Of a stretch of 62,221 nt of DNA, positions 897 to 27,846 are shown in pieces (position 1 is the stretch's first letter; the number at the start of each line of letters is the position of its first letter). The stretch is from a virus. Under the pieces are notes generated by a model, which was given only the letters and a program-made list of their open reading frames with translations, had not been told where the DNA came from and did no database searches. The position numbers and the translations under genes are program-made. The DNA lies in IMG/VR virus record IMGVR_UViG_3300001419_000005, positions 91 to 62,311 of that record, one strand, 5' to 3'.

Positions 897-1073
897 AGAC
901 GGAAGCTAAGCAGTCTAGGTAGCTCCTTAGACACCAACTATATTATGTATTACTAATATACTTCTTAGTATATACTACTAAGCCATACAACCTTTACGGC
1001 ATCAAAAACCCACTCTACACTCTTCCCATCCAGCGCCTGCCAACGTGGCAGTGACACGCAGACGGAAGCTAAG
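897..1073. repeat. 14-bp direct repeat flanking the promoter-like element
   Basis: AGACGGAAGCTAAG occurs exactly at 897-910 and at 1060-1073, on either side of the 972-993 element, with partial similarity continuing beyond (TCTAGG versus CTTAGG). It could be a protein binding site or an origin repeat; only the repetition itself is seen. Confidence 0.55.
972..993 (-). promoter_or_regulatory. Phage RNA polymerase promoter-like element, copy 1
   Basis: A 22-bp sequence with minus-strand core GGTTGTATGGCTTAGTAG, identical to copies at 47654-47675 and 61576-61597. All copies lie between genes and in the same orientation relative to transcription. The match to copy 2 extends upstream: GGTTTTTGA recurs at the same distance (1002-1010 here). 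On the minus strand CTTAGTA at the 3' side of the element forms an inverted repeat with a TACTAAG just beyond. Length, placement and the presence of a T7-type RNA polymerase make a phage promoter the best explanation. The exact start site is not known. Confidence 0.65.
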
Positions 1074-1174: not shown

Positions 1175-4100
1175 TCACTTTCCTAACTTGTCCGCCAGGG
1201 AGCCACCTGCGGATCCCGGTCCCATCGCGTTCCCCTTAGGAGTCGCAATGGTACCTGAGAGGCCGGAGGATCCTCCCTGAGGCGTTCCAGCCCCGCTTAC
1301 TCCCGGAGATGAGTCTCCAGTCGTCTGCGGAGTTTTGGGCGATTCAAAGCCCGCTACGTAGTCAGCCTTCAATTTGGCATAGTCCCTAGCTCGGCCCTTG
1401 AGACGAGTCTGCTTAGGAGCCGGCCCCCGGTATTCGGGGACTGCATTGAAGTTCCCCAGGATCTGGAGATTCTTCGGACGATGCGATTGAGGCGTACCAC
1501 TGGCGTCCTTGAAGTCACCAGTCGCTCCTCGGAGCCCCGCCACCAGAAGGGGACGGAATTCCGCGGGACCGTACTTGTACAAGAACTCCTTAGCCTGACT
1601 CGCAGCCTCAGCGGGGTTGCCCTCAAGGAGAGCGCTGCCGCCCTGCTTCACCAGATCGGTGAACGCAGTGATGCTCTGGATCATCATAGACGGTCCAGGC
1701 ATGCCGGGGGTGTTCATACCGAAGGAGCGCTCCTGGGCCTTAGAGCCAAAGACCGCGCCTCCGCTGAGCTTCCCGACAGAGGAAGTCAGACTATTCATAA
1801 TCATATCAGTTAGGAACGACCCGGCCCCAAAGACAGGCATACGAGCAAGAGCGGTGGTCATCTGCCCAGGGGCATCAGTCCGCCAGTCCTCCGCGATCGC
1901 CTCCGGGGAGTCGCCGTTCTTCATCCTGTTCAGCGAGTACCACATGACCTCACCGAAGTAGAGAGGCATGAGCATAGCCGCGGTGGCACCGAGGCCGGTA
2001 GCCGCCAGGCCAGCCATGACTTCTCGCATGAACAGAATAGAATATTGTGATAGCTGCTGCCACATACGGACAACGGGGCTCGTGTTCAAGTTGGTCGTAC
2101 CAACTCGGGGCTCCATGTTCGTCTTGGCAACTTGGTTGAAGAGAAGCTGCTGGAGGCCAGTAGCCGCCTTGCCGGACTTGAGAGACTCCTTGCCTCTTCC
2201 GAGGCCAGGCTCCCAAGCGACAGCATCAAACATCTCTTCATACTTCAGGAACGTGTTATCAGGCATATAGTCTTCAGCCAGCTCAGACACCCGCCGAGCC
2301 ATCTCCGGAGAGAGTAGACCCAGGCCGTGCATCTGAGTAGCCACGTCAGCCTTCACACCGTTCTCCTTCGCAAGGCGTCGAATCAGCTTGGCGTCAATAG
2401 TGCCCTCAGGGTTGGAGGCAATCCAATCGTTGAGAGCGTCAGCCAGCTTCATGGCCTTAGAGTTTCCGTCGGCGTCCGTGACCAGCATCTTCCGGAGAAG
2501 CTGCTGAGCAGGGATCATGGCCGCCTCACGCTGAGCGAGCTGCACTCGTTCAAACGCGAAGGAGCCCAAACGACGGATCTTCTTGTTAGCCTTGTCGTGG
2601 AAGCTTTCCTTGAGCGAGGGGTCCAGGGCCATTGCAGCCGAGGCCTCGTCGCCCATGTTCCAGATGTGACCGAAGCCAAGCTTCGTCATATGGTAGGGCA
2701 TGGTGATACCGATGGCGTGCATCGAATCCCGCATGGCCCCCATGTCACCGGCGTACTTTGGAAGAGTCATCTTCGTTCCGTCGGTGAACATCTTAGCTGC
2801 ACGATTGACCAAGCCAGCCGTGCCTTCCACAATGAGGGACGCAGTCGTCCAGTTAGGCGTGGTCGCAAGACCGACCGCCGTCTGAATCGTAGGAGCAACA
2901 GCTTCGAGGAAGTCATTGCCCGACTCATCCTTATACGAAGGGTTACGGCCCTGGGCAAGCCTGTACTGAGACTCGAGGTTCTCAATCTCCTTGATCGCAG
3001 CGCGCTGCTGAGAATCGGAGAGCTTGACCATGGTACCGTCCTGCGAGACACGCGCCCGATGGACGCGAGCCTTAAGAGCATTCAGGAGATCGCCATAACC
3101 GAAGCCGGTAATGCCGTAGTACTCCTGATTAAAGAACTTGTCCGTGACTCCATGATCGAAGGCCATAAAGGTCTTCAATACATTAATAGGAGTACGGTTC
3201 AGACCCCGACCAGCAACACCGTCGTTCAAGATACGTCGGAAGTCACCGCCGCTCATGAAGCGGTTGTTAGCGAAGGAGTAACCACCGTGACGACTGCGAT
3301 ACAACATCTTCATTGCTTCGTAGTCGGCCGGCGAGGATACTTCCCTACCCGAGGCAAGTACCGCACGGAACTTAGCTCGGTCCTCCGGATCGGGGAAGTC
3401 CCGATCAAGGTGGCGCATATAGAAGGGGACATTCTTACTGTCCGTGAACACAGCGGGGTCAACGCGCCCCTGCATGGCCTGCTTGTAGACATCCCGCAAC
3501 TGAGTGGGCATATCCTTAGCGTGCCACTGACCGGCCTCCATTTTCTCTTGGAGAACCTGAGACGCCAGCCAGAACTCGTCAGAACGATCACCGCCATCAA
3601 AGCCGATGTCGTACTTGCTTTCATCAATGTTCAGCTTGCCTTCGTCAATAATAATATCAACGAGATCCGAACCATAGACGGAGTCCAGGGTATCGACATG
3701 GCGAGCCCGATCGGTGGGAGACATTGCTGACTTCCACGGAGCGAAGATGCCATAGTCGTGCATGAATTGTGCATTCACGAACCCCTGTCGTTCCTCGGGA
3801 ACGGAGGGATCATATTCAAGTCGTCGAATCTGCTCTTGGCGGATGCCGTCACCAACCTTGATGGACATCTCGCGCATAGCAGAATCTTCCTTGATGATCT
3901 GGCTAAGCTGAATAGGCAGCTGGCGATTCCCGTCACCGACGAGACTATCGACCACCCACTTATCCATCTCACCAGTTTGATGCGCGTTCTTATACGCACG
4001 GTCGTACAGCTTAGCGAATTCACGCGAAGCAGTCTCGACCAGGTTGGCGGCATGCGGGTTCACACGCCCCAACTCATCCAGAGCCTCGGTATTATCCGGA

Positions 4101-7100
4101 TGGCCGATGAAGGTTTCTTCAAACGCATCATCAACCATACGAACGAACTCAGGGTCCTGGATCTTCTGAGCCATCTCAAAGAGTTCAATGGACGCCGACA
4201 TCGGCTTGCCATACAGCGCTCGCTGAAGCGTCTGGATCTCCTGCTGCGACATGCCCATACTAAAAGCCTGAGCAGCGGAACGCTCCTCGAAGCCAAGAGT
4301 ATTGTTGAGCATCTGAGCCGCCCAGTTGATCTCATCCGTCATCGAACGCCACGCCGAAGAGGTGCCCTGCAAAGCAATGCCCTCACCGACAAACATAGCC
4401 GCACGTCGGAACTTAGAGTCACCCACGGTCTCGCGACGACCAGCGATCTTCCCGTCAATCATATGATCAACGATAAGCTTCTTCTCGTCCTCAGTGAAAC
4501 CGTCTAGGCGAACTCGACCGAACTCTTCGTGAGTAGCCGGGTCACCATCTGCAATCTTACGGGCAATCTTTGCACGCTCTTCGATCGTGAGACCGGAGTC
4601 GCGCATAGCATACCTCGTCTTCTTGCGGGTGCCCTCACCAAGCAGCGTCCTTTGGACACCAGCGATGGATCGCTCAGAAGGAGTCGCGTGCCCAAGCTCC
4701 GCCAAGCGGTTCTTGAGAGACTCAATCTTATTGCGGATCATCGGTAGATCTTCTTCAGACGCTGTTCGTGATTCGTCCATCGCCTCAGTCAACGCCTTGC
4801 GAAGGGCGTCCTCTGTGTTGATGTTCGAAGAGTGATTAAACCACATTTCGTTAAATGCCTTACGACCCGACCACAGCACAGGCTCCGCAGTGTTAGCAAT
4901 GCGGCCCAGGCGCTCAAGGACCGTAGCGGGCTTAAGCCTGTCGGCTCTAATGCCCTTAGCCTCGATCTTAGGGGTCTCGTAGATCTTTGCGATCTTACGA
5001 ATACGATCACCGTAACCGGCGCGATACAAAGCAGTAAACTCTTCACCGAAGTTCTTAGTCACCTCAGTATCGATCGTACGTGAAAGCAAATACCAGGACA
5101 TCATCTGAGCTGCGAACTCCTGCGACGCAACACCCTGACGGTGAGAGTCACCGCTCTTGAGGTCGTCGTAGAACTTCTTAAACAACTCATTGCCCTTCTT
5201 GTCTCCATGGATAGCAACAAACGCGTCATTGAAAGTCTTCAAGTCCTCGGGCGTACCCTGAAGGATACGGCGATGGAACTGAGACCTCATCGACGTGAGG
5301 GCATGGGACGACGGTCCGCCGCCCTTGGCTCCCTTACCAAGTGCCATCCCACGGTGGACGATAGCGTGTCCAATTTCATGAACAACAATATCAAACACCT
5401 CCATGGCCTCCATGCCTCTCATATCCTTAAGGATAGAGACGCGATGAAGCATCTGCTGCGAGCTGTCAATCATAGACCGCATCTTAGCAGTACCAGCTTC
5501 GCCGGTGAACTGGAACTTGATCCCAGGGAGGAGATCCCCCAGGAGGTCCATGTTCATAGCCATCATCAAACCGAATTCGCGAGCAGCGTCTTCATCCTTA
5601 AAGACACCCGCCTTCTTAAACTCATCAATCAGAGTGTTCAAAGCCGGGTAACGCTTTTCACGAATTACCTTATCAAACTCATTAGCAAGAGTTCGGCCAT
5701 TGCTAAAGATAGGCCCAGAGTTATCCGGGACACCCTCAGCAATTAGCTTACCCTCCTGCTCAGTTTCCATATCATCGAGAACTCGACCAGCCGACGCATC
5801 GGTAATCAGATCGCGCTCAGGCATGTTAGCCATAACGGCTTCCAGCTTAGCTCGGTTAACACCTCGCGTGTTATAGTCCAGCTCGTCTCCCATGATAGCA
5901 GCAATGTCCTCTCGGAACGTGCCTTCTACTTCAGAGTTGAGACGAGATTCGATAATATTAAAGTTATCATAAAACTTCTTGCCCATGCCTTCCGTAAAGT
6001 CCGATCGACGCAGGAAAGACACGGGAGGAACAGAGCCCTTTATTCCCTCGGCCATGTTTCTCTTGGCTCGGGAAGAATACTTAGCAATAGAGGCCATCTT
6101 CATCTCGTCCTTACCAGAGAGATGATATGCCCACGCCGCGTGAGCAGCGTCTGCGTTCCAGCGAACCTCTCCGTCCTCATCTGCGGATTTCAGGTGAGAC
6201 ATGTCGAAGACGCCGGAGTTCTCGTAAATACCCAAGATTTGACTACCCCGGATATAAGCAAGGGCATCAAGCCCAGACGAACCGGAGATAGAATCATCAA
6301 AAGACATCCACCGGTTAGCGCCGTCCGTGACTTCGCCAATTCCCTTACGGGCGGCGTCGATACGATCCTGGCTAACCTTACCTTCGCGGTCAGGGTGGAG
6401 ATGTGAGAAGGCTCTAGACCTATACTCACGAGCGCCCATCTGATCCACGAGGTTGAGCTTCTCCATCTTCATTTCAAGCATCGACGCAAACCACAGACGA
6501 CGAATCATCGGCTGAGACTTGGGGTCAATACCAGAAGCACGGAGCTGGCCCATAGTACGCCAGAGAAGAGTCTTCATTGGAACGCGGCTCAGAGTAAGAT
6601 CGCGGCCAAGGGAATCGATGTAAGCCGCAGGCCTACGCTTTCCGTCCTCAACCTGGAGAACCTTAAGGTCCCCCTCAGTAATCATATCTTGCAGCAATTC
6701 CTGAGTAAGTTCTTCTGGCTTCGAGATACCAAAGAGCTTACGGGCCAGGCCCATAGCTTCGGGATCCTTCATCAGGGTTTCACGAACAGACCCAAGACCC
6801 ATCAACGTAGTAATGTTAGCAGGCATAAAGGACTCATCGACAAACCCTTCCTGCCACTCCTTCAGCCTGGCTTCGTAGTACGATCCGTCCGCATCGTCCT
6901 CAAGACGCCTAGCGGCGTACTCGTTAAACTTAAACGCAGCTTCTTCAGCGTCCACCCCGAACTTGGTCATAATAAACCAATGCCCGAAACGGACAGACTC
7001 TTCAGCCGCGCCCATGCCAATACCAAAGTCATTGGAGAAAACAGACTTCGCCATAATGCCGGTGATCAACGCGCCGGACGTAATGTTACTACCCTCAAGA

Positions 7101-10100
7101 ACAATACCTTCTCGAGGAGCAGGCCCGAGCAGCGCATCAGCGTGCATCCAGTTCCCAGTGGGGTCGTTCACGTACAGCTCTCTAAGAGCCTGCAAGAACG
7201 AACCAGCGGGATAGGCGGTTCCAGTATCAGGAATAATCTGCACGTCTCGCGTGCCAGCTTCCTTCTTAGCAGCAATCTCAGTCTCGCCCATGAGCTCTTC
7301 CAGATAAGACTGGATGTCTCGTTGGACGGTATCCATAAAGCCCTTCTGGCCTTCTATAGTCTTAAGGTCAAAGCCTTCACCGTTTTCGGTGGACTTCAAC
7401 TTAGACGTACCTGAGGTCATGCCTTGCTTCACGGCTCTCTCTACGTGCATCAATCGGAAGACTCGCCCAAAGGAGTCCATGTCCGTGATCGGGATGCCAA
7501 TAGAGTTGCTGTAATCATTGACTTCGCGCCACGTCCAGTTGCGAAGCCATTCCTTATCATTCTCGATTCTCATACCGTCGTTACCGCGAGGGGCAACGGG
7601 CTGAGGATTCTCGATCATGAATGTACTCAATTTATTTGCGATCTTCAGGGGAGACGGCACAGCCATCTCGCCAAGAGTAATCGCAGGGCCAGATACTTCG
7701 CCCTTCATGGCGGCCTTAATCTTATCGCGCATCACGATATCAGACGTGCGGCGAAGACGGAAGGCCTGGAGCTGAGGAATGCCGGCATCAGTCATGATAC
7801 CTTCATCGCCCTGCCCAAACAGAGTCTGAGTCCGAGTAGAGGGGACTTGACTACGGATATCATCCCAGAGGATGTCCGAAAGCTCCTCAGGCATCTCACC
7901 GTTCTGTTGTCGGTAATCAGCTCGCCATTCCTGGCGGATCTCTTCCATCTTCTCTCGGATACCCGTAGCTCGGCTCTCATTAGCAGCCCAGTCACGGTAG
8001 AAGCCTTCAACAGTCGGCTCCACGTAATCCTTGATCGGAGGGTTCTGAACCCCCAGGAAGTCGATCATCATATCCTGAACAACAAGCTGAGCAGCCACCA
8101 GATTGCGGTCCTCGGCAGACATCTCATTCCAGCCCCTTGCATGCTCAGCATCGAGCTCCCAGATAGGAGCTGCGTGCTCGTCAGACACGGCTCGGTACAC
8201 CGGCCGGATAGACCGGTCGGAGTCGTTAGGATTAACCCAACCCTTGCCTCCCTGCCCTGCCCCGGTCCAACCACGTCCAGCGGACGAGTGAATCGAAGAG
8301 TGCAGACGTAGTCCGGCTTCGTGAGCAAGCTTCATCTTTGGATCTAGATCGTCAGCAGTAAGACCAACACTCTTAAGAGCACTGTCGGCCTCTGCGTTTC
8401 GCATCCTATATCCAACACTATTCATTGCACGGATGGTGAGCTCATCTCGCCGCGTCAGCCAGTTCTCGAGGAAATCTCGGAGGGCCAGCTCAGGCGTATC
8501 AGACTCTGCCATAACTTCGCGCATCTTAACTGCAATATTTTCTTCAGCCACCTTGATCTGGTCCACAGTAGCCGCACCACTCTTAATGAGCATGAGGTTC
8601 TTCATGTGCCAGCGCCCAACAGTAGCGAGGAATTCATCGCCATAATCGTTGGACCAACCACGACGCTTCGCAACGGCGACAGCTTTTTCCTTTACCTGCC
8701 GCTGGAAGTTCTCGTAGTTCTCTCGGTTAGCCTTTTCGTTTCGCTCTTCCCGAGCTGCTTTATCCTGAGGGGATTCGTCGCCCTCCGGCGCAGGCTCCCT
8801 CTCCCATGCCGTATCTTCCATACTGCGCTGAGCGTAGAGATCATCATACGTAATGTTACGCATTTCGACTTCGCCCCTCTGAACCACAGTAGAGTCGCTA
8901 CCGGCGTCACGCCCTCTGTGCTCAATCTGAAGATCAAGATCAGGGTTAAACGCATCCGCGTGGAGGGAGTTAAGGTTACGAATAGAATCACGGAAAGTCT
9001 TGGCGTCGGGCGTCTTAAGAATCTTGCCCATCATACCGCCTTCGCCCTTCCACTTCTTACCGGCCTTATCTGCAAAGGCCCAACCAAGGACGCTCGCAGT
9101 CTGGTAGAGAATAGAGTTAGGCTGTCGGTTACCCGACTTCGCGTCAGCTTCGAGCTTCTTCGCCAGATCGGGGAAAGCTTCCTCGACCATGCCTCGGAAT
9201 TCAGCAGCTGCTGGAGTGTCAATACTAAAAGCTTCCTCAAGGAAGTCAGCAATGGCTCCAGACATAGCATCGCCACCGGCGCCGTAAGATCGGGTCATAA
9301 CAGGACGCTTCATGAGCTTGTCCCGAAGGAACTTCTTCATGCGGCCCTGAGCAGCAGTACCTGGATCATCAGCCTTAGCCTCTTCTCCAATTTCCTGCTT
9401 ACTACCAAACTTACCAATAGAATCAAACAAGTGATTCCACATATCTGCGCCGTCAGCAAATACTTCCTCATTTCCAAAGCGTCCGCTACCAAAAGCGGTC
9501 TCGCTAAAGCCCGTACCCTCAGACCCTTCTATTCTACCCTGGAGCCGGCCTTGGCTCTTAGCAAAGCGAGGCTCAGCCGGGATATCGATCATCCCATCCC
9601 AGACAGTGGAGTAGAAGTCGGCAGCTACAACTGCCAGGCCCTCTTCGTCAAGCTTAGCGCTGACGTTCTGAGCCAGAGCTTCGGCCTTGAGCATCTCCAT
9701 TCGAATGTCCCCGTTGAGGAAACCATCCTTAGGATCCCAGCCCATAGCCGTCTTAACTTCGTCGATACCACGAGCAATGTCGTAGTCCGAATCAATAATA
9801 TTTTTAACATTAGCATCAGACTTACCGTAAGCCGCCTGCTGACGAGCAGCAAAGACAGCGGCGTTGAACAAGCCCTTAGCCAGAGACACAGCCTGTGAAG
9901 CCGCGTCCCACGAGTTGAGGATCTCATCGAACTGCTTAGTAGAAAGCGTACCGCCTTCAAACTTAGCCTTTCGGATTTCTTCATCAACCTTGCGAACAGC
10001 GGTATCCAGCTCAATCAGGGTCAGCATCTCTGCTGCCTCACGGAGCTCTGCTTCGCCCTTGCTGCCGCCCTTCTCGGCCAGCGCCAAAAGCTTTCGCTTC

Positions 10101-13100
10101 TCGCCGACCTTCAGGCTCTTCTTAATGCCGGCAGCATCAGCTGCCTTCTTCAGGGCTTCGCCCTTAAGGTTGGCAATGTGCTCAGGGATTTCAATCTCTT
10201 CCCCTTCGGCTGCCTTACCCCGAAGATCATTAGCAACAATAGCATCCCGCATGTCCTTCAAACTCTCAAGACCAATGGCACGAGCAAAAGCGTCCATGCC
10301 GTCAAACTGCCGGAAGATCATACCGGAGCGGATGTTAAGCCAGTCGGTAATACCGCCGGGCACCGTAGCCAGAGTCTGCCAGCCAGCGCCCAGGCCGTCC
10401 AGCGATCCTGCGCCCTGTGAGTTACGCATAACCATGGGACCAATGGCACCCATGTTATTGAGAGCAACGCCCTCCTGCATAATCAACGTAAGGTCATCGT
10501 GGATCCCCTGATGGAGATGCACTGGCTCCTGAAGCATTCGAGAGTAGTAATCATCCATTTTTTGCTTAATGTCGCCACTCCAATCACGAACAGGAGACCC
10601 GAGAGCCTTTGCGTCACGAGACACCAAGTGCAGCCCACGGTCCTTCTGCTCGAAGGGGTGCTTAGGAACATTAGCCTGGATCTCTTCCGCAGAAGCGTTC
10701 TTAAGGTTAGTGTAGAACTCAATAATATCGTTGAGCTCTTCATGAGAGAATTCCCGAGGGGTCCCGTCCGGGTTGAACAGGATCTGCCTCTCGCCCTCTC
10801 TAAGCATGAACTCTTCAATAAACTTGACCTGCTTCTGAACCTTCAGGTTACCCGTGGGGTTCTGAGTTCGGTCAGCACTGAATCGAACGTGAGCATAGGT
10901 CTCGCCACGAGTGCCGACCTTAGTGTCTGCCTTAATCTCAGCGGCCGTGTCTCCAGTCAGGGACGCACCGTCTCGGTACATCCCGATCAAAGCCAGGCCA
11001 GCCTGATTACCACGAACGAAAGACTGGGAGCCATTAACAAGATCCATGGGGCTATCAAACCCGAGATCCTTAGCAGCCAGCTTTGCAATCATAGGAGCGA
11101 CAGTGCTCTTCCATTCTTCAGTAGGGGAGCTACCTCGCTGAGGCACGGGGATACCATGCCGCTTGAAGATAGCGTTTCTGTTCTCGACGGAGATACCGTG
11201 GTTACCGAAGAGCGCATTTCGAGCGCCCAGATACAGGGCGTCCTCTTCCGTTCTAAGGTAAGCCGCCCAGCCTTCTTCCCCGAGCTCCTGTCGCTTAGCG
11301 GCAGCAGCTTCCTGGGACACAGCTCGGTACGGAGCAAGCATCTCTTGTTCGAGATAATCAATTTCATTAACAGTCTTAATCTTGCTGTTGTACTGCGCCA
11401 GCCGGATACGATCCTCGAGATCGGCTTCGCCATTCTTGACCTTGCCTTCGAGGCGCGCCATCTCGGCACGAGCAGCAGCAGAACGAGCAGTGTTGAAGTC
11501 AGCGTCGACACGAGCAAGGCGTTCTTCCGCAATGCGGCGAACCTCAGCAAGGTCGTACTTATTGGTGCCCACGCCGGAAGTTCCCCGAGCAGGACCAAAG
11601 ACTGCATCACGGAGGTTGACACCTGCGTCTGACTCAGGCCCAAAGAGGGGCCGAGCAATCGCGAGCATCTCTACTTCGCCAATGAACCTATCATGTCCAC
11701 CAGCTCGTAGTTCCTCCATGTGCTTATTAACTTCATTCAACACATTCATAAAGTAGAGACGCTGCCCCTCGCGGTCAACCCCGAGGATCAGCATCTGATC
11801 AATATTCAGCTTACCGGCCGAAAGTTGATCGTCTACCTGCTGGATAAACCTGTGATACCCCACGAGGGCGGTAAGCTCTTCGATGTCCAGTCCCTTTACG
11901 GCGTCAGCGTTCTCTGCGGGATAGCCGAACTTCGAGTGAAGCTCCTGCCGGAGAGTCAGCTTCTTCTGGTTCTTATGCACCTTAGCAACCTCTCCCTCGA
12001 CGTCCTTAATCATGTCCCCAAGCGATCGCTCGGTAGAGATGTTAGCGACATCGAAGGTCTCATGCAGAGTCTTCAGGTTTTCAATAGCCTTATCAAAATA
12101 GGCCGTGCCTTCAAGGAAGGCCTTATTATCACGGAACTGGTAATCGCGGAGACTACCACCTCCGACAAGAAGCTTAAGCTCCTGAGCCGTGCGGTAAGCC
12201 GCAGCGGGCCCAGCAGCCTTATGTTCTTCAATCTGCTTAGCAATAGCCTCATAGCTGCCTCGAGTAAACCGGCTCGCCAAGAAGACGGCGTTCGGATCCT
12301 CAGTAAGGCCCTTGAAGTTATTACCCTGTCCGTGACGACGAGCCGTGCGGATAGCGTTGTGCGCTCCGCCCAGATCAATCATATCGGAATCACCATTATC
12401 GAAAGACCGAGCAAACTCCGGATCAAGTTCCACCAGCGCGTGGCGGAGAACTTCGACCGGCATTTCCTCAAAGCCTTCCTTCTCAAAGCCGTCAACGACG
12501 TCATGTGCTCGGGACTCGACCGCACCGAGCATTCGGTGGGATACGACCTGAGCAGCAATAGCGTCGACTTCGACTTCGTCAACATCTAGTCTCTGTGCAA
12601 TAGCCTTACGGACAGCGGCCTGGGCCTCTTCCGCAGTATGCACCTTCTGAGAAGCTTCGGCCTGGGCCTTCTTAGCCACCTTCTTAACCGGAGGAGGCTC
12701 AGGCACAGTAACCCGCTCGAATTCGACAGGAGCATTCTTGGCTTCTTCAACCTTCTGCGCAGCCTCATCGACCTTCTTTTGAGCGGCTGCCTTAGCCTCA
12801 GCCTCAGCGCCAGCACGCTCACGACGCAGGGCATCGATATCAGCCTCAGCATCCTCGCGAGCATCAGAACCCTTCTTGTAGTCAGGAGTATCCTCAAATC
12901 GTGAGGGGCCCTCAGGCTCTCCCTCAGCGGCTTCAGTCTCAGCCTTAGCCTTCGCTTCAGCCTCAGCCTCGGCTTCTTCGGCTTCGATCCTAGCCTTCTC
13001 AGCCTTAGCTTCCGCGAGAGCCTTTTCCTGCTCTTCGAGTTGCTTCTGCTTGGCGGCTTGGGCCTCTGCTTCGCGCTTTGCGTTTTCCTTCTCAGCGGCC

Positions 13101-15181
13101 TCTTCGGCCTCTTTCTTTTCCTTGAGACGCTGATCTTCGGCCTTCTTAGCTTCGGCCTTAGATGCCGCCCGGTCTGCAGCCGCTTGGCGCGCCTCAGCCC
13201 GAGCATCGTCAACAGCCTTGTTGGCTGCAATCAGATCGTCAATCACAGGGTCAGCGGCTTCGGCCGTTTCCTGTGAAGCCTTACCGAGACCTTCCGCCGA
13301 CTTATCCTCAACCTTGTGCTCTTGAACAATAGCACCGGTCTGGATATCATCGCGGGCAACCTCGTCTTCAGCCTTAGCTCGATCCGTCTCAGTCTTGCCC
13401 TTAGCAATCTGCCTCTCCAGCTCCTGACGACGCAGGTGCCGAGCCGCGACTGCATCGGGCTTTACAAATTCATCTTTAATAATATCATGCGCAGCTTCTC
13501 GAATGATAGCTGCCTTTTCTTCTGGCGTGCCTTCAAGGTCGTCCAGATCCACCTCATCACGCATACGGGCTGCCACCTTATGAGGGGCAACTCCCGCGCG
13601 CCCAGCATCTCTCTCGATGCCGGCAGACGTAGAGGTCACAATAGCTTCGTCTTCGATCCCGCTCTTGGCGAGGATCTTCCGGGTAATCCCAGCAGTCACA
13701 GCAGATGATGCTGCTTCCTTGTTAGACTTGCCTCGGACACCTTCAAGGTTGCCGGCCAAGCCCTTAAGGCTTTTGTCGGCCATTGCCGTCAGGCCCTTGA
13801 AGCCTACACGAAGAGCGGAGCCCAGGGTAACCGCACCCGCCACGCCCATGAGGCCGCGAAGAGCGACCTGATCGAAGCTGCGGATTGAGGCCATCTGGCC
13901 CTTGCCGTAGACCACGCTGTTGAGATCATCGATGTTCTGGGTATTCATAAGGAAGGCACCCACGCCACCGGCAACGCCGTCAGCAGAAGCACCAGCCAAG
14001 AAGGTCACCCAGTTATCGTACTCGTCCATATTGTTCCAGGCGTATCGGAGCCGAGACGCAGTGGTCTTCAGTTCCTTGCCCTTACGAGCGGCCTTGAAGG
14101 CCTTGACTCCGGGGACAACAAAGTCACCCAGGACGCGGGTCGGCAGAAGGCGGCCGGCGGTAGCCAGTCCCTTAGCTGCCTTGTGAGTTGCGAGAGCGCG
14201 GTTCGTGAGAGAGCCCGCCTTAGCGGCGCCGCTCACGTACACACTCGCGCCACCGGAGGGGATCGCCAGCAGAAGCGCCATGCCGACCTCACCGATGGTA
14301 TCAGGATCATTAATAATAGTAGGAAGCATCTGCCCGAAGTTCTCAAGCATACCGCCCCAGTCATCCGCCGAGGCGTGCTGCTGGAACTTGGCTTCCTTAT
14401 AGAGACGGTTCATCCCGTAGATGAGCGCGTCTTGGTTTGTGAATCGGGACATGGTATCCCGCTTCATCCCAGCGGCCTGAATAAGGTAGCGACCAGCCTC
14501 CGAGGAGTTCATCGCTTCCCAGGCATTATCCTGAGCTTCGGCAGTCCAGGTGGGATCAACCCGCTTGGTAACCATATCCGAAATATCATCATACGTAAAG
14601 AGCGACTGGAACGGGCTGCTGAGGGTGTCGCCCCAGCTGCCTTCCTTGCTCGTATCCACGCCCCGAGCCTCAGCAGCAGCGAGGAACTCGGGAGAGTTCG
14701 TTAGGCCGAGGATCTTAGCGACGTCGGAGTTCTGCCCCGCGTCGTGCATAAACTGGTTCCGGGCACGGAGATCCGTACCGAGGAAACCCCAGTGCTCGTC
14801 AGACGTCATAGAGCGCGCTTGCTCCCAGGCTCCTTCGTGGATCGACTCGACCCAGAAGTCATTGTTGGAAGCGTGACGCTCCGCTTCGGTAGCAACGTCA
14901 AGGCGGATCTTTTCCCAGGCCTCGATGTCTTCGCTAGCCCCGGAGGACATAGCCTTACCGAAGGCCTCCATCCGCTCATTGAATTGACGGAGGGCGCCAG
15001 TGCCGGTAGTAAGTCCGATTTGAGTCATCTCATCGGTATAGCGGGCACCAGTAATAATACTATTATGCTGACTAGCTGCATGGGCCTTGAGCTGAGCGTC
15101 AAGGTCCAGCTTTGCCTTCTCCTCGTCTACCGGCGCAATGCCGTTAGTGACGGGGTTCGGGACAGGGTTAAATTGAGACAT
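1175..15181 (-). CDS. Giant internal virion protein with zincin metallopeptidase motif
   Basis: A single uninterrupted frame of 4,668 residues, against about 1,318 for T7 gp16. Its place after the gp14-like and gp15-like genes suggests it fills the gp16 role: ejected with the DNA to span the envelope. Visible parts are hydrophobic stretches near residues 300-330 and 440-470; a long Ala/Glu/Lys-rich charged helix at about 650-850; many charged helical segments; a metallopeptidase signature HEIGH at 3268-3272 with a candidate third zinc ligand, E3355, in QEFAAQ; and a hydrophobic, probably membrane-inserting helix pair near 4374-4405. I see no lytic transglycosylase or RNA polymerase motif. Giant zincin-bearing phage proteins of this kind resemble 'polyvalent proteins' that co-enter with DNA and counter host defence; that role is inference. 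Confidence 0.85.
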   Translation of the reverse strand: MSQFNPVPNPVTNGIAPVDEEKAKLDLDAQLKAHAASQHNSIITGARYTDEMTQIGLTTGTGALRQFNERMEAFGKAMSSGASEDIEAWEKIRLDVATEAERHASNNDFWVESIHEGAWEQARSMTSDEHWGFLGTDLRARNQFMHDAGQNSDVAKILGLTNSPEFLAAAEARGVDTSKEGSWGDTLSSPFQSLFTYDDISDMVTKRVDPTWTAEAQDNAWEAMNSSEAGRYLIQAAGMKRDTMSRFTNQDALIYGMNRLYKEAKFQQHASADDWGGMLENFGQMLPTIINDPDTIGEVGMALLLAIPSGGASVYVSGAAKAGSLTNRALATHKAAKGLATAGRLLPTRVLGDFVVPGVKAFKAARKGKELKTTASRLRYAWNNMDEYDNWVTFLAGASADGVAGGVGAFLMNTQNIDDLNSVVYGKGQMASIRSFDQVALRGLMGVAGAVTLGSALRVGFKGLTAMADKSLKGLAGNLEGVRGKSNKEAASSAVTAGITRKILAKSGIEDEAIVTSTSAGIERDAGRAGVAPHKVAARMRDEVDLDDLEGTPEEKAAIIREAAHDIIKDEFVKPDAVAARHLRRQELERQIAKGKTETDRAKAEDEVARDDIQTGAIVQEHKVEDKSAEGLGKASQETAEAADPVIDDLIAANKAVDDARAEARQAAADRAASKAEAKKAEDQRLKEKKEAEEAAEKENAKREAEAQAAKQKQLEEQEKALAEAKAEKARIEAEEAEAEAEAKAKAETEAAEGEPEGPSRFEDTPDYKKGSDAREDAEADIDALRRERAGAEAEAKAAAQKKVDEAAQKVEEAKNAPVEFERVTVPEPPPVKKVAKKAQAEASQKVHTAEEAQAAVRKAIAQRLDVDEVEVDAIAAQVVSHRMLGAVESRAHDVVDGFEKEGFEEMPVEVLRHALVELDPEFARSFDNGDSDMIDLGGAHNAIRTARRHGQGNNFKGLTEDPNAVFLASRFTRGSYEAIAKQIEEHKAAGPAAAYRTAQELKLLVGGGSLRDYQFRDNKAFLEGTAYFDKAIENLKTLHETFDVANISTERSLGDMIKDVEGEVAKVHKNQKKLTLRQELHSKFGYPAENADAVKGLDIEELTALVGYHRFIQQVDDQLSAGKLNIDQMLILGVDREGQRLYFMNVLNEVNKHMEELRAGGHDRFIGEVEMLAIARPLFGPESDAGVNLRDAVFGPARGTSGVGTNKYDLAEVRRIAEERLARVDADFNTARSAAARAEMARLEGKVKNGEADLEDRIRLAQYNSKIKTVNEIDYLEQEMLAPYRAVSQEAAAAKRQELGEEGWAAYLRTEEDALYLGARNALFGNHGISVENRNAIFKRHGIPVPQRGSSPTEEWKSTVAPMIAKLAAKDLGFDSPMDLVNGSQSFVRGNQAGLALIGMYRDGASLTGDTAAEIKADTKVGTRGETYAHVRFSADRTQNPTGNLKVQKQVKFIEEFMLREGERQILFNPDGTPREFSHEELNDIIEFYTNLKNASAEEIQANVPKHPFEQKDRGLHLVSRDAKALGSPVRDWSGDIKQKMDDYYSRMLQEPVHLHQGIHDDLTLIMQEGVALNNMGAIGPMVMRNSQGAGSLDGLGAGWQTLATVPGGITDWLNIRSGMIFRQFDGMDAFARAIGLESLKDMRDAIVANDLRGKAAEGEEIEIPEHIANLKGEALKKAADAAGIKKSLKVGEKRKLLALAEKGGSKGEAELREAAEMLTLIELDTAVRKVDEEIRKAKFEGGTLSTKQFDEILNSWDAASQAVSLAKGLFNAAVFAARQQAAYGKSDANVKNIIDSDYDIARGIDEVKTAMGWDPKDGFLNGDIRMEMLKAEALAQNVSAKLDEEGLAVVAADFYSTVWDGMIDIPAEPRFAKSQGRLQGRIEGSEGTGFSETAFGSGRFGNEEVFADGADMWNHLFDSIGKFGSKQEIGEEAKADDPGTAAQGRMKKFLRDKLMKRPVMTRSYGAGGDAMSGAIADFLEEAFSIDTPAAAEFRGMVEEAFPDLAKKLEADAKSGNRQPNSILYQTASVLGWAFADKAGKKWKGEGGMMGKILKTPDAKTFRDSIRNLNSLHADAFNPDLDLQIEHRGRDAGSDSTVVQRGEVEMRNITYDDLYAQRSMEDTAWEREPAPEGDESPQDKAAREERNEKANRENYENFQRQVKEKAVAVAKRRGWSNDYGDEFLATVGRWHMKNLMLIKSGAATVDQIKVAEENIAVKMREVMAESDTPELALRDFLENWLTRRDELTIRAMNSVGYRMRNAEADSALKSVGLTADDLDPKMKLAHEAGLRLHSSIHSSAGRGWTGAGQGGKGWVNPNDSDRSIRPVYRAVSDEHAAPIWELDAEHARGWNEMSAEDRNLVAAQLVVQDMMIDFLGVQNPPIKDYVEPTVEGFYRDWAANESRATGIREKMEEIRQEWRADYRQQNGEMPEELSDILWDDIRSQVPSTRTQTLFGQGDEGIMTDAGIPQLQAFRLRRTSDIVMRDKIKAAMKGEVSGPAITLGEMAVPSPLKIANKLSTFMIENPQPVAPRGNDGMRIENDKEWLRNWTWREVNDYSNSIGIPITDMDSFGRVFRLMHVERAVKQGMTSGTSKLKSTENGEGFDLKTIEGQKGFMDTVQRDIQSYLEELMGETEIAAKKEAGTRDVQIIPDTGTAYPAGSFLQALRELYVNDPTGNWMHADALLGPAPREGIVLEGSNITSGALITGIMAKSVFSNDFGIGMGAAEESVRFGHWFIMTKFGVDAEEAAFKFNEYAARRLEDDADGSYYEARLKEWQEGFVDESFMPANITTLMGLGSVRETLMKDPEAMGLARKLFGISKPEELTQELLQDMITEGDLKVLQVEDGKRRPAAYIDSLGRDLTLSRVPMKTLLWRTMGQLRASGIDPKSQPMIRRLWFASMLEMKMEKLNLVDQMGAREYRSRAFSHLHPDREGKVSQDRIDAARKGIGEVTDGANRWMSFDDSISGSSGLDALAYIRGSQILGIYENSGVFDMSHLKSADEDGEVRWNADAAHAAWAYHLSGKDEMKMASIAKYSSRAKRNMAEGIKGSVPPVSFLRRSDFTEGMGKKFYDNFNIIESRLNSEVEGTFREDIAAIMGDELDYNTRGVNRAKLEAVMANMPERDLITDASAGRVLDDMETEQEGKLIAEGVPDNSGPIFSNGRTLANEFDKVIREKRYPALNTLIDEFKKAGVFKDEDAAREFGLMMAMNMDLLGDLLPGIKFQFTGEAGTAKMRSMIDSSQQMLHRVSILKDMRGMEAMEVFDIVVHEIGHAIVHRGMALGKGAKGGGPSSHALTSMRSQFHRRILQGTPEDLKTFNDAFVAIHGDKKGNELFKKFYDDLKSGDSHRQGVASQEFAAQMMSWYLLSRTIDTEVTKNFGEEFTALYRAGYGDRIRKIAKIYETPKIEAKGIRADRLKPATVLERLGRIANTAEPVLWSGRKAFNEMWFNHSSNINTEDALRKALTEAMDESRTASEEDLPMIRNKIESLKNRLAELGHATPSERSIAGVQRTLLGEGTRKKTRYAMRDSGLTIEERAKIARKIADGDPATHEEFGRVRLDGFTEDEKKLIVDHMIDGKIAGRRETVGDSKFRRAAMFVGEGIALQGTSSAWRSMTDEINWAAQMLNNTLGFEERSAAQAFSMGMSQQEIQTLQRALYGKPMSASIELFEMAQKIQDPEFVRMVDDAFEETFIGHPDNTEALDELGRVNPHAANLVETASREFAKLYDRAYKNAHQTGEMDKWVVDSLVGDGNRQLPIQLSQIIKEDSAMREMSIKVGDGIRQEQIRRLEYDPSVPEERQGFVNAQFMHDYGIFAPWKSAMSPTDRARHVDTLDSVYGSDLVDIIIDEGKLNIDESKYDIGFDGGDRSDEFWLASQVLQEKMEAGQWHAKDMPTQLRDVYKQAMQGRVDPAVFTDSKNVPFYMRHLDRDFPDPEDRAKFRAVLASGREVSSPADYEAMKMLYRSRHGGYSFANNRFMSGGDFRRILNDGVAGRGLNRTPINVLKTFMAFDHGVTDKFFNQEYYGITGFGYGDLLNALKARVHRARVSQDGTMVKLSDSQQRAAIKEIENLESQYRLAQGRNPSYKDESGNDFLEAVAPTIQTAVGLATTPNWTTASLIVEGTAGLVNRAAKMFTDGTKMTLPKYAGDMGAMRDSMHAIGITMPYHMTKLGFGHIWNMGDEASAAMALDPSLKESFHDKANKKIRRLGSFAFERVQLAQREAAMIPAQQLLRKMLVTDADGNSKAMKLADALNDWIASNPEGTIDAKLIRRLAKENGVKADVATQMHGLGLLSPEMARRVSELAEDYMPDNTFLKYEEMFDAVAWEPGLGRGKESLKSGKAATGLQQLLFNQVAKTNMEPRVGTTNLNTSPVVRMWQQLSQYSILFMREVMAGLAATGLGATAAMLMPLYFGEVMWYSLNRMKNGDSPEAIAEDWRTDAPGQMTTALARMPVFGAGSFLTDMIMNSLTSSVGKLSGGAVFGSKAQERSFGMNTPGMPGPSMMIQSITAFTDLVKQGGSALLEGNPAEAASQAKEFLYKYGPAEFRPLLVAGLRGATGDFKDASGTPQSHRPKNLQILGNFNAVPEYRGPAPKQTRLKGRARDYAKLKADYVAGFESPKTPQTTGDSSPGVSGAGTPQGGSSGLSGTIATPKGNAMGPGSAGGSLADKLGK

Positions 15182-15233
15182 TATACTTTCCTTTTTGTTC
15201 TACCCACAACGGGGTGAAGTAAATAGAAAACCA

Positions 15234-15266: not shown

Positions 15267-18200
15267 TTAGTCAATAGCGCCAAGGAATCTGGCGGCGTCA
15301 TGAATAATTGTGTTTTGGTTGTCTACCTTCACAGGCTTGCCGCTAAGCGTAGCGTGCCCGCCGATGAGTGTTCCCACGTTTCCGGTCCTCTTCTTCCCGC
15401 GCACGAAAGTACGAGGATCGCCCTTAGTCCTGTCTTCGACCATAGTAGGCCCAAACAGGGGGATAGGAAGTCCAGAAATATTCTCTACAGTCCGGCCAAT
15501 AAACTTCAGGTTATCTAGAGTATATCTAGTCTGAGTATCATAGCCCAGCTGAGTCTCTCGGAGATTAGCCGGATCCACATCAGCTCGGAAGGTACTGTCA
15601 ACATCAAGATCGTAGGGACTGAGATGCTGGATAACCGCGTCGTTATCAGGGAACAGCATAGTCATAAGCGCAAGCTTGGCGGCCCACTTAGGGGGATTGG
15701 TATCCCACATGGTGAACCCCTGTGCCTTAGCGATTTCCTGAGTCTTCTTCCAGAGATCGTGATCTGGAGGCAGAGTACCAGCGCGGATCTGCTCGGCAAC
15801 ATCCCGAACAGCCTGAGCATCCTCTTCGTCGATCGGCACACCGGCCTTCTTAAAGGTCGTGATCGTTTCATCGATCTGGTTGCCAAACGCGAGGCGTTCA
15901 TCCTTAGTAGCTTGTCCAGTAACAAAGCCACGGAAAGGGGCCGAGTGATCAGCAAGATGACGTCGGTTGTTAGAGTCGGCCAGCCACTGATGGGCAGCCT
16001 CTGTACTTTCGCCGGCGTCATGGATTGCCTGAACCTGCTGCTCGTAGAAGACGTCCCCCGTCGAGCCCTCTCGATGGTTGAACATCCAATCCCACGTGCC
16101 TCCTGCAATGGAGCCAATAGTGGTTCTACTATATTCTTCATTAAAATCATCAAGACCCATCATGCCTTCCTGCATGGCGTCAGTAAAGTCGCCGGTAAAG
16201 GGGGCAGCGGGCTTCGTGTTTCTAAGGCCATCTCCTGAGTACAGCGAGGGGAGAGAAATAATCTCCGTTCGGACTACATCCCCATCCTCATTACGGATAG
16301 GCTCAGCAGCGTACCCATCCAGGCCAAGCTGATTACTGATATCCAGAGCCATCTGAGTTGTGACTTCAGGATCTCTTAGCATCCACTGTTGAGTGAGATC
16401 ATTGTACTGAATAACTCCCGCTGCCTCTGCGGCAGAGGTAATACGCTGAGCGCCAACCTTGTCCCCGACAGAGTCGATTCGCTGATTAGCAACGTCGACA
16501 TCAATGCCGCTGTAGTCTCCTCCGAATATTGACCAATCAAGAGGATTGAGCAGAGTGTTTCTAGCGCCGCTCTGAGCTTGACTGGTTCCGGGCTGGATAG
16601 AAAGAGCAGCACCGAAGAGAGTAGAAACCCCAGGGCCCCACGTCTCTACCATCTGCGTCTTCTTATCATACTCCAGGGGAATGCTTCCTCTCTGAACAAC
16701 GGCGCTTTCAAGGAGTTGGCCGATTCTAGTTTGGTCTCCATCCTGGAAAGCTCTCGACAGCATGATACGAAGATCATCAGGCATTTCGTAACTAGCTCCG
16801 AGTTCGTTCTGGACTGCCTTAAGGACAGCATCAGATGTTACTCGGTAAGCAGAAGCTGCGGGAAAGATAGATCTAGCAACAGCTCCAGCGTGGACCGCCT
16901 CATCGAGAAACTCTTCGGAAACGCGATTGTCGCTGGTATAAGCCTTTGAGCGGACCATGCTTGACATAGTCTCGGCAACAATACTACTGTGTTGTCCGGT
17001 AGGCTTATAAAAACCGTCCTCGTCAAGAGCGAGATAAGGGAGCATAGCTCCGATCTGAGCATTGCTGACAGCTTCGGGATCGCCTACATTGTCAAGACTG
17101 AAAGAGATTCCGCCGTTGTTCTGATCCACGTTAACCTGCCAGGGAGTGTCCTCAGCAGCCGTAGACAGAATCAAAGCGAGGTGATCATGACCAAGATCAG
17201 GGTTATTAATATACTCCTGATAGGCCGTGACCCACTTATCAATCATTTGTGCTCGAGCTTCAGGACCCTTCTGCCAAGTAGCTTGAGTGATAAAGTCAGT
17301 TCCCATCATACCAAAGGCTTGAGCCTTGGGATCACTGGGATCAAACTTACCGCCCGTGTTGGCATCGATAAGAGAAAGGCGAGGAGAGTCCCCACCCTTA
17401 GAGGCAGCCACAAAGGGATCAGCTGTGATCCGCTTTCTAGCCTCGGTTGAGTCCGTAGTAGGACCATGCTTTTCCAGCTGGAACTTGGCTGCCTTGTCCT
17501 GCTCGTTCTGGCGCTGCTGCTTAGCAGCTCGGAACGTGGACATACCAACCTTAATCTGATCTTCCAGGTACTTAGAAAACTCCTCCGAATCAGGGTCCAT
17601 GCCGACAAACGCGGCAACCCCTTCGTAGTCTGTCACCGCCACCGCATTCATCATTTCGGCAGCTTCGTCAGTAGTCATAGTAGCGTCCAGCTGGAACGCA
17701 CCAACGGAGACCTTTCCAAGGTAATCACCGAGGATAGGCTGCCTCTGTCCATACGTCATGGGACGCTGTCCATTATTAATCATGGCTCGCATTCCGGCGA
17801 AGCCATCGGCAACGCGCGTGAAGCCAACCTCAGGATCCGTAGCGCTGACCCAATCCACCGAGGCAATCCGAGGGGACTGCGTGATGGCGGTCTTCTGCTT
17901 CAGGTCCTGGTCCGCAACCTCCATAGCCACAGCCTTGTTATAGGTGGGCTCGAGGGTGCGCCGGAGAGTCTGGCTGAGCATGTCGGCATAGGGGCCTTCG
18001 AACTTGCCGGACTGCTGGTTATAGGATTCCCACAAAGCCGCGCCGCCCTCGCCGCTGTAAGAGGCCATAGAAGCGAGAGCAGTCTGCTCCCACTCCTCGT
18101 ACCCCACACTAGGCGGGAGCTCCATGTTGAGCCTCTCCAGGCCTCCTGAGGACTCCCAGGCTTCGATCGTATGCTGAGCCGAAGCCGACACAGACTGCGC

Positions 18201-18866
18201 CCAGAGGGCAGCGTCGCCGAGCTGGGCAGACTTGATCTGCTCCGCCCTGGCGGTGTCCTTGCCGTGCTTCTTAAGAATCGACTCGTAGAGCCGATCAGTG
18301 TTAGCCTGAGCATCGGCAATAGGCACGCCCATTGCAATCTGCTGCTCACGCGAACGCTGGGCCCAAGCGAGGTCTCCATTGAAGTCGAGGTTCTGAGCCG
18401 CGATGCGGTTGTTCGCAACCTCGCCTTCATACTGGGCGCGATACCGGTCGTTCAACCAGCCGCCCTTATATTCATTTTGAATATCCTGAATAGACTTGAG
18501 CTTCGCCTCGTCGTTGAGGTAGCCCGGAGCCTCGGGATTAGTCCACTCATCCGCGGACTGCATGGTAGCAATCTTCTTCTTCATCTCAGTGAGACGAGCG
18601 TCGTCGATCTGGTTACCAAGCCTGTCAACCCCTGCCATAGTCTGGCTAATTCCCTGGACCACGTCCAGAGCGTTAACCAACCCAGTGCTCGTATTAAAGC
18701 TAGAGCTCTGGCCGACCTTGACAGTAGCAGTCTTGCCACTCATCGTAGCGCCCTTACCGGGCTGGACCTTCTGGCCCTGCACACCGGCGGCTTCTCCTAC
18801 GACATTCTCAAGAGGATTACCCCCGAGACGGCCTGGCCCTTTGTCTTTCTTGTATGGGTTTCTCAT
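15267..18866 (-). CDS. Internal virion protein, gp15-like
   Basis: A 1,199-residue, largely helical, charged and soluble-looking protein, longer than T7 gp15 (747 residues). It begins with a Gly/Lys-rich tail (MRNPYKKDKGPG), then long Ala/Gln/Glu-rich stretches, with no signal peptide or convincing membrane segment. Its start overlaps the stop of the gp14-like gene as ATGA, and the giant gene follows 86 bases later past a hairpin. The trio in this order matches the T7 ejection proteins gp14-gp15-gp16, which form the inner core and trans-envelope channel. Assignment rests mainly on context, length class and composition; no catalytic motif was recognised. Confidence 0.7.
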   Translation of the reverse strand: MRNPYKKDKGPGRLGGNPLENVVGEAAGVQGQKVQPGKGATMSGKTATVKVGQSSSFNTSTGLVNALDVVQGISQTMAGVDRLGNQIDDARLTEMKKKIATMQSADEWTNPEAPGYLNDEAKLKSIQDIQNEYKGGWLNDRYRAQYEGEVANNRIAAQNLDFNGDLAWAQRSREQQIAMGVPIADAQANTDRLYESILKKHGKDTARAEQIKSAQLGDAALWAQSVSASAQHTIEAWESSGGLERLNMELPPSVGYEEWEQTALASMASYSGEGGAALWESYNQQSGKFEGPYADMLSQTLRRTLEPTYNKAVAMEVADQDLKQKTAITQSPRIASVDWVSATDPEVGFTRVADGFAGMRAMINNGQRPMTYGQRQPILGDYLGKVSVGAFQLDATMTTDEAAEMMNAVAVTDYEGVAAFVGMDPDSEEFSKYLEDQIKVGMSTFRAAKQQRQNEQDKAAKFQLEKHGPTTDSTEARKRITADPFVAASKGGDSPRLSLIDANTGGKFDPSDPKAQAFGMMGTDFITQATWQKGPEARAQMIDKWVTAYQEYINNPDLGHDHLALILSTAAEDTPWQVNVDQNNGGISFSLDNVGDPEAVSNAQIGAMLPYLALDEDGFYKPTGQHSSIVAETMSSMVRSKAYTSDNRVSEEFLDEAVHAGAVARSIFPAASAYRVTSDAVLKAVQNELGASYEMPDDLRIMLSRAFQDGDQTRIGQLLESAVVQRGSIPLEYDKKTQMVETWGPGVSTLFGAALSIQPGTSQAQSGARNTLLNPLDWSIFGGDYSGIDVDVANQRIDSVGDKVGAQRITSAAEAAGVIQYNDLTQQWMLRDPEVTTQMALDISNQLGLDGYAAEPIRNEDGDVVRTEIISLPSLYSGDGLRNTKPAAPFTGDFTDAMQEGMMGLDDFNEEYSRTTIGSIAGGTWDWMFNHREGSTGDVFYEQQVQAIHDAGESTEAAHQWLADSNNRRHLADHSAPFRGFVTGQATKDERLAFGNQIDETITTFKKAGVPIDEEDAQAVRDVAEQIRAGTLPPDHDLWKKTQEIAKAQGFTMWDTNPPKWAAKLALMTMLFPDNDAVIQHLSPYDLDVDSTFRADVDPANLRETQLGYDTQTRYTLDNLKFIGRTVENISGLPIPLFGPTMVEDRTKGDPRTFVRGKKRTGNVGTLIGGHATLSGKPVKVDNQNTIIHDAARFLGAID

Positions 18867-19504
18867 GATTGCAGTCCCTTAAGACCAGAGGCCATGTCGA
18901 GGCCGGAGCTAATACCGCCAAAGATTCCCTGAGTAATCGCACCGGACGAGCTAGGCTTAATACCAATGTTGCCGGGAATGAACGCAGCTGACTGATCCGC
19001 GTCAATGCCGCGGCTCTGCTGGTTCATCTGATTCTCAAAGTTTTGTACGACAGCAGCTTCCTGCTCGTAGTTCTTCATACTAATTTGATAGTTCCTGTCT
19101 CGCTCGGCCTGGAGGGCCTGACGCGAGAGGAGCTTAGCGGTGCCGCCTGAGGCGCCGCCCTGCTTGCCCATGATCTGCGAGGCCAGTGAAGCCTGAGCCG
19201 AACGGCTCTGCTGGTAGACCTGCTCACGGGCATCGGCTGTCATCTTCTGGTTCTGCCACTGAGCGTAGAACCTATTCGCCAGAGCAGCGTCGTAGATCTT
19301 TTGGTCCTGGATCCGCTTGTTGACGTTGGACTGAGCAATAGCTTCAGTCTGTCGGTCGTTAGCAAGCTGACCAAGGAAGTTGTTCTGCATGGTCTGATGC
19401 TTCTGCTGAAGGTACTGAGCTTCTTGCTGCTTCGCCTTCTGCATCCCGCCCATGATTCCGCCAGCAACGCCGACGGCGGCCATTCCGGCCAACATAATAC
19501 CCAT
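18863..19504 (-). CDS. Internal virion protein, gp14-like
   Basis: A 213-residue protein with a short hydrophobic Met/Gly/Ala N-terminus (MGIMLAGMAAVGVAGGIMGGM) followed by a long Gln-rich helical region, the usual look of T7 gp14-type proteins that insert in the outer membrane during ejection. The ATG at 19504 has GAGG upstream, so I prefer it to a TTG two codons earlier. It overlaps the next gene by ATGA and starts three bases after the sulfotransferase stop. It probably works with the two larger internal virion proteins. Confidence 0.7.
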   Translation of the reverse strand: MGIMLAGMAAVGVAGGIMGGMQKAKQQEAQYLQQKHQTMQNNFLGQLANDRQTEAIAQSNVNKRIQDQKIYDAALANRFYAQWQNQKMTADAREQVYQQSRSAQASLASQIMGKQGGASGGTAKLLSRQALQAERDRNYQISMKNYEQEAAVVQNFENQMNQQSRGIDADQSAAFIPGNIGIKPSSSGAITQGIFGGISSGLDMASGLKGLQS

Positions 19505-19506
19505 AG

Positions 19507-19965
19507 TCAATACCTCATGTAATTGATTATTTCGTCGATTCTCTCATCCAGATCCTCAGTACGGACCCGGAGATGTGGAATTGATAAATATAGATTGAGA
19601 GCTTCAGCTGACCTGTCGCGGAAATCTTCCGCCGACCAGGCGATACCAAGGGTAGCTAGCAGCTCCCGCTCTCTAACCATTTGCTTCTCAATAGAGGCAA
19701 TCTGGCTGTCTCTGTCTCGTTCAAGTATTACCATCTTCTCGATGTCAGCATAGCGTGCGGACAGAGGCCACACCTTTACGATGACGTCTTCGAGAGATTG
19801 GTAGTTCTGAAAATGAGTTTCATAGTATCCTTGGGGGTTACCCTCCGCCGGCATCGTCTCGTCAATCGAGGGATCCCAGTGAACAGGCAGTCCCGCCTCG
19901 TGCATCATCCGCATAGTAAAGGATGTACCGGAGCGGGGTCCAACTCCCATTATGGCCCGGATCAT
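19507..19965 (-). CDS. Compact sulfotransferase-family protein
   Basis: A 152-residue protein with the ordered hallmarks of PAPS-dependent sulfotransferases. The 5'-phosphosulfate loop GVGPRSGTSF is at residues 7-16. A NPQGYYE segment (44-50) resembles the family's NP-x-GY-x-E. The 3'-phosphate site RDRDSQIAS is at 83-91 with Arg83 and Ser91. A C-terminal RTEDL (135-139) is also present. It is shorter than typical cellular enzymes (about 250-300 residues) but keeps all the nucleotide-binding parts. It overlaps the large terminase gene by ATGA and lies just before the internal virion genes, so it is probably expressed late. Its acceptor is unknown: a virion protein, a host surface glycan or a small molecule are all possible. 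Confidence 0.75.
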   Translation of the reverse strand: MIRAIMGVGPRSGTSFTMRMMHEAGLPVHWDPSIDETMPAEGNPQGYYETHFQNYQSLEDVIVKVWPLSARYADIEKMVILERDRDSQIASIEKQMVRERELLATLGIAWSAEDFRDRSAEALNLYLSIPHLRVRTEDLDERIDEIINYMRY

Positions 19966-23323: not shown

Positions 23324-23377
23324 GGTAATATCCTTTTTCTTTCTGGTATGTAAACTACTTGTTAAATTTTTAAAGAA

Positions 23378-23409
23378 GGGACCGGGGGACACAGCTGACC
23401 CCCGGCCCC
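23378..23409 (-). terminator. Strong hairpin between fibre and lysis-like cassette
   Basis: In minus-strand RNA an 11-bp stem (GGGGCCGGGGG with CCCCCGGTCCC, one G-U) closes a ten-base loop and is followed by TTCTTTAAAAATTT. This is the most terminator-like structure between the fibre genes and the membrane/protease cassette, and could set a lower level for the latter. Confidence 0.6.
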
Positions 23410-27777: not shown

Positions 27778-27806
27778 TTGGCTCTCCTTGTAAAGTTAAT
27801 TAAAGT

Positions 27807-27834
27807 CCCCACCTCTCCGCTAAGAGAAGCGAGG
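27807..27834 (-). other. Intergenic hairpin
   Basis: An 11-bp stem (three G-U pairs in minus-strand RNA) with loop TTAGCG lies between two adhesion genes. Same class of transcript-specific hairpin as 40704-40731, which has loop TTAAGT. Confidence 0.5.
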
Positions 27835-27846
27835 GAAGGGTTAAGG

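Follow-up and report, generated by a model that had tools for sequence, protein, structure and literature searches.

In an uncultured T7-like phage, a giant gene adjoining the large terminase gene probably encodes a zincin-bearing ejection protein of the type of the phage N4 virion RNA polymerase (RNAP), and in its family the polymerase palm is apparently rearranged. On balance we favour the broader reading that in this lineage of T7-like phages a cysteine-free giant ejection protein brings a T7-family RNAP with a permuted palm into the cell, beside one or two ordinary RNAPs. Such a palm, with motif C before motifs A-B and with DxxGR after motif B, would to our knowledge be the first in a single-subunit RNAP; our literature search, of incomplete coverage and thus weak evidence of novelty, returned no report of a permuted single-subunit RNAP or of a virion RNAP in Autographiviridae.

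The DNA analysed, hereafter the window, comprises 62,221 nucleotides of a 62,311-base IMG/VR virus record. It belongs to a T7-like phage, in which PHROGs recognise terminase, portal, capsid, tail tubular proteins A and B, DNA polymerase, primase/helicase and a T7-like RNA polymerase. The giant gene is real and conserved. In agreement with the original prediction of one unbroken frame of about 14 kb over more than a fifth of the window, it consists of a single frame that starts with ATG and runs for 4,668 aa without a stop (22.5% of the window; Table 1), while the longest open frame in Markov shuffles (n=200) of the same 14 kb had a mean of 159 aa and a maximum of 278 aa. Comparison of its first 717 residues with the 96%-identical copy of L002 gave a dN/dS of 0.021/0.191, indicating purifying selection; on this ground, and because five giants share the motif order described below, we rejected an assembly or frame artefact. 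The predicted charged helix is present as well, with 85% A/E/K/R/D/Q across 150 residues from about residue 660, but the hydrophobic C-terminal pair described earlier is weak: at a Kyte-Doolittle threshold of 1.5 only residues 299-317 and 439-457 pass, both in the N-terminal part of the protein.

Table 1. Features of the giant gene, its cassette and the RNAP genes (residues are those of the giant protein; positions are those of the window unless a contig is named)
Feature	Position	Strand	Basis
Giant gene, 4,668 aa, no cysteine	1175..15181	-	ORF call, composition, shuffles
Shine-Dalgarno-like AAAAGGAAAG	15186..15195	-	Upstream of the giant's ATG
N-terminal conserved region, residues 218-458, with two hydrophobic peaks	13808..14530	-	hhalign P=1.5e-5
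Charged A/E/K-rich helical stretch, residues ~630-880	12542..13294	-	Composition
RNAP motif C-like segment, residues 1536-1576, IHDD at 1560-1563	10454..10576	-	P=9e-4, P=0.05
RNAP motif B-like segment, residues 1943-1972, KRPVMTRSY at 1958-1966	9266..9355	-	Score 43.5; phrog_414 E=0.0025
Zincin region aligned with the family, residues 3248-3375	5057..5440	-	hhalign P=1.4e-5; alignment A4
HEIGH zinc-binding motif, residues 3268-3272	5366..5380	-	Sequence
Glu3355, proposed third zinc ligand, within EFxA	5117..5119	-	Invariant in six giants
C-terminal conserved module, residues 4262-4462	1796..2398	-	hhalign P=1.8e-9
Second gene of the cassette (1,199 aa, cysteine-free), proposed to form the periplasmic tunnel (role of gp15 / N4 gp51)	15267..18866	-	Conserved order, cysteine lack
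First gene of the cassette (215 aa, cysteine-free), proposed to form the outer-membrane part (role of gp14 / N4 gp52)	18863..19510	-	Hydrophobic N-terminus, cysteine lack
Large terminase subunit, anchor gene adjoining the cassette	19962..21743	-	phrog_38 5e-89
Separate T7-like RNA polymerase of the window phage, ordinary order, 834 aa	55882..58386	-	phrog_414 6.5e-143; DxxGR-A-C by pattern
Further RNAP gene (L080)	G022 3644-5689		
Further RNAP gene	G004 48633-50558		
Further RNAP gene	G006 30603-32510		

Starting from the terminase, and via alignments led by a relative, five diverged relatives of the giant were reached in IMG/VR (4,225 to 5,003 aa): G003 (4,225 aa), G006 (5,003 aa), G004 (4,286 aa or more, cut by the end of its contig), L064/L074 (4,490 aa) and L075/G022 (4,245 aa). 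Their contigs stem from uncultured viruses and may be incomplete. With this family the window giant aligns collinearly in hhalign over its N-terminal region, its zincin region and its C-terminal module (Table 1). The full-length window giant and its slices matched no family as a whole in Pfam and PHROGs, scans that used the zincin or the RNAP region of the window giant as a single sequence gave no relative, and neither did a search of genome contigs; the isolate phages searched contain no relative of the giant or of either cassette partner, and solved-structure searches with alignments A1, A2 and A6 returned chance matches only.

Upstream of the zincin, the relatives have a block of some 600 residues that contains IHDD/LHDD, DGxxNGxxH, R-K/S-FxKxPxMxxPY and DWRxR, in that order. 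Against a profile of seven T7-like RNAPs this block scores 67.9 for motifs A+B (P=2.3e-7), 37.6 for motif C (P=0.002) and 27.6 for DxxGR (P=0.035), compared with at most 28.3 in 60 column shuffles. The RNA polymerase family phrog_414 is found in all five relatives (best 5.9e-14), the virion RNA polymerase family phrog_2206 in one and Pfam PF00940 in three of the five. Equivalents of T7 R425, D537, R627, K631, Y639, H811 and D812, as read from the alignments, are invariant in the five giants. Between G006 and G004, the RNAP block (dN/dS 0.085/0.72) and the zincin (0.123/1.01) are more constrained than the N-terminal part (0.262/1.20), as expected if both are in use. When the block of L064 was compared with isolate phages it matched only ordinary RNAPs, at motifs A-B; its AlphaFold model, based on five sequences, had a pLDDT of 50 and a pTM of 0.33, and Foldseek gave no match to the PDB at E<=0.001. 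From these sequence comparisons, homology of the giant family to the single-subunit RNAPs appears almost certain.

The five relatives share the motif order C-A-B-DxxGR, whereas DxxGR-A-B-C is the order in T7, in N4 and in the second RNAPs of G004, G006 and G022. An HMM of eleven ordinary RNAPs placed motif C of G003 at residues 1389-1409, A-B at 1464-1605 and DxxGR at 1769-1797. This order would be illusory if only A-B were true RNAP sequence and IHDD and DWRxR were chance look-alikes, the real C and DxxGR having diverged elsewhere in the normal order. We judge this improbable: the DxxGR score is indeed about that of the best shuffle, but motif C exceeds all shuffles, the three best local matches of the RNAP profile in the family block are exactly the three catalytic segments, a profile reordered to have C before A-B scores 84.2 versus 67.3 for the natural order, and the giants agree in their order with no significant motif C downstream of B. 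A mis-joined contig as the source of the order was rejected, given its presence in five giants and the purifying selection. Judged from the alignments, motif C thus very probably precedes A in this family and DxxGR probably follows B, the residual doubt concerning chiefly the position of DxxGR and the window's own copy. Permuted polymerase palms are known from a few RNA-virus RNA-dependent RNA polymerases (RdRps) (PMC4666646). The palms of birnaviruses and permutotetraviruses likewise have motif C before A and B, but these enzymes copy RNA and belong to another polymerase family, and the T7-family giants apparently moved DxxGR too. In the relatives, motif C and probably DxxGR would have changed sides around A-B; if true, the fold of the T7 RNAP family tolerates the same rewiring as the RdRps of RNA viruses.

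In the window giant itself, the motif B-like segment is the top RNAP match in the entire protein (43.5 versus a shuffled maximum of 31.6), and a slice of the giant reaches phrog_414 (Table 1). The motif C-like segment is weaker than B, with the lower of its two P values coming from one family comparison and the higher from another, and it lies in the same order as in the relatives. Motifs A and DxxGR were not placed, the candidate strings having a spacing unlike that of the family, and its polymerase may therefore be decayed. The window also contains one ordinary RNAP gene. Two further RNAP genes of ordinary order (about 830 aa and 635-682 aa) are present in G022, G004 and G006, which amounts to three single-subunit RNAPs per phage with the giant. 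Three similar intergenic repeats in the window (959-1010, 47641-47692 and 61563-61614) share TACTACTAAGCCATACAACCT and are promoter candidates of the phage RNAP.

The zincin residues could be traced through all six giants. HExxH is conserved in each of them, with a chance expectation of about 0.11 in the window giant, and so is the downstream glutamate of EFxA, 63-87 residues away; the HEIGH motif and Glu3355, a possible third ligand, had been placed exactly in the original prediction. The giants thereby show the HExxH plus downstream glutamate of zincin metallopeptidases. In all six the HExxH zincin lies C-terminal to the RNAP block, and in the N4 virion RNAP a zincin domain comes right after the polymerase (PMC12633501, PMC5512222). 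Zincin profiles of the giants and of ten N4-type virion RNAPs matched with P=2.3e-5 (local) and 6.5e-6 (global), a match partly driven by HExxH, and a full-length profile comparison of the giants with the N4 C-terminal region was not significant. AlphaFold modelled the window zincin region, from an alignment of five sequences, with a mean pLDDT of 38.

The giant is the third gene of a small-medium-giant cassette (215, 1199 and 4668 aa), whose order is fixed in every contig covering it: terminase, a gene of 202-346 aa, a gene of 1,002-1,415 aa and the giant. The N-terminus of the 215-aa protein is hydrophobic and rich in Gly/Ala. An extra gene of about 150 aa stands directly after the terminase in the window and several relatives; in the window this conserved gene (152 aa, 19507-19965) starts with GPRSGTSF, which resembles a sulfotransferase P-loop. 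A comparable small-medium-giant operon is gp52-gp51-gp50 of N4 (Schitoviridae; PMC12633501), with 150, 644 and 3,500 aa in the direction of transcription and the giant last. N4 gp50 resembles the giants further in its size, in the HExxH zincin that comes after its single-subunit RNAP domain and in its long C-terminal part. The giants differ from it in motif order as described above and in their setting, a T7-like genome with an ordinary T7-like RNAP gene of its own, and in sequence they are only marginally similar to N4. All five relatives have a single-subunit RNAP domain, of which just motif B and, weakly, motif C are seen in the window giant.

T7 gp14-gp15-gp16 and their counterparts in RHEph01 are also three proteins of rising size, but unlike these internal virion proteins the cassette follows the terminase, and no sequence similarity is detectable in isolate phages. 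The original assignment to the slot of T7 gp16 holds only loosely: the giant is third in a cassette of small, medium and giant genes, but its gene lies downstream of the large terminase gene and not between gp15 and the fibre. In RHEph01, an isolate close to the window phage by its terminase, the internal virion protein genes sit between tail and fibre, a place where the window has no recognisable counterpart of them. The gene order of G004 is portal, scaffold, capsid, tail A, tail B, terminase and cassette, and in its relative G006 the virion structural genes come after the giant. A transglycosylase-bearing gp16 was rejected as the identity of the giant, the Pfam and PHROG scans having revealed no such domain.

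The composition of the cassette bears on its fate. The window giant contains no cysteine in 4,668 residues, while 44 were expected from the 0.94% of the window's other proteins (Poisson ~1e-19). Five of the six giants are free of cysteine, the exception being G003 with four, and the cassette partners are likewise free of it in the window and have at most one in the relatives. N4 gp50, gp51 and gp52 have no cysteine either, and the same holds for the gp15/gp16 analogs of RHEph01. As it extends across a single cassette of more than 6,000 residues, this lack is a strong pointer to ejected virion proteins, likely because these pass through the oxidising periplasm; it is a pointer and not proof, since some virion proteins that are not ejected (N4 gp56 and gp57) also lack cysteine. 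An ejection cassette entirely devoid of cysteine offers a simple sequence signature of proteins that must cross the periplasm; we found no report on cysteine-free ejection proteins in a literature search of incomplete coverage. That the giant is a non-virion cytoplasmic protein, made late or early and merely adjoining the terminase, is very unlikely: the position after the terminase, unlike that in T7, would suit such a protein, but the cassette order is fixed and cysteine is absent throughout the cassette, unlike in the phage's other proteins.

Polyvalent proteins with metallopeptidase (MPTase) domains have been described, the N4-type virion RNAPs among them (Iyer et al. 2017, PMC5512222). 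The giant resembles them in exceeding 2,000 aa, in its late/packaging neighbourhood and in joining a zincin to an unrelated enzyme domain; it differs in that no catalogued LPD or effector domain was detected and in the rearranged RNAP motif order of its family. This likeness in size, zincin and late position would also fit an ejected polyvalent or DarB-like counter-defence protein, in which the RNAP-like segment is a non-transcribing remnant, at least in the window phage, whose giant has just motif B and weakly C and which already encodes a T7-like RNAP. We consider this unlikely, although less so than the two alternatives above, since no catalytic residue of any motif varies among five diverged relatives, the RNAP block is strongly constrained between G006 and G004, and Pfam and PHROG scans of the window giant recognised no LPD, ART, helicase or other effector domain. 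There is no evidence here for a counter-defence role of the giant, and the earlier comparison with DarB gives way to an N4 virion-RNAP-like identity because a single-subunit RNAP domain is present. The original reading as an injected, protease-bearing protein is supported by the relatives, the gene order, the lack of cysteine and the zincin motif, but had missed the RNAP domain.

T7-like phages are otherwise taken to depend on the host RNAP for transcription of their first genes. For the N4-like ejection protein favoured here, homology, gene order and composition are shown, and from the analogy with N4 we infer roles of the giant and its cassette in packaging, ejection, channel formation, early transcription and proteolysis. 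The giant would be made late and packaged together with its two smaller partners, the 215-aa protein serving as the outer-membrane part of a channel and the 1,199-aa protein as its periplasmic tunnel. Most likely it would be expelled last, in extended form, through the channel of its partners and refold in the cell. There its RNAP domain would transcribe the genes that enter first, at a time when the phage's T7-like polymerase does not yet exist, and the downstream zincin would cut either the giant itself or a host protein. If true, virion transcription in the style of N4 extends to T7-like phages.

Other parts of the window showed some further features. Between the fibre genes and the terminase, four large genes (701, 711, 1056 and 628 aa; 23537-32873) are without PHROG match, as is a 540-aa frame on the plus strand (42253-43875) opposite the probable scaffold gene, which is probably spurious. 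The region 22700-23392 has a weak yet significant match in PHROGs to head maturation (ClpP-type) proteases, which is unusual in a T7-like phage.
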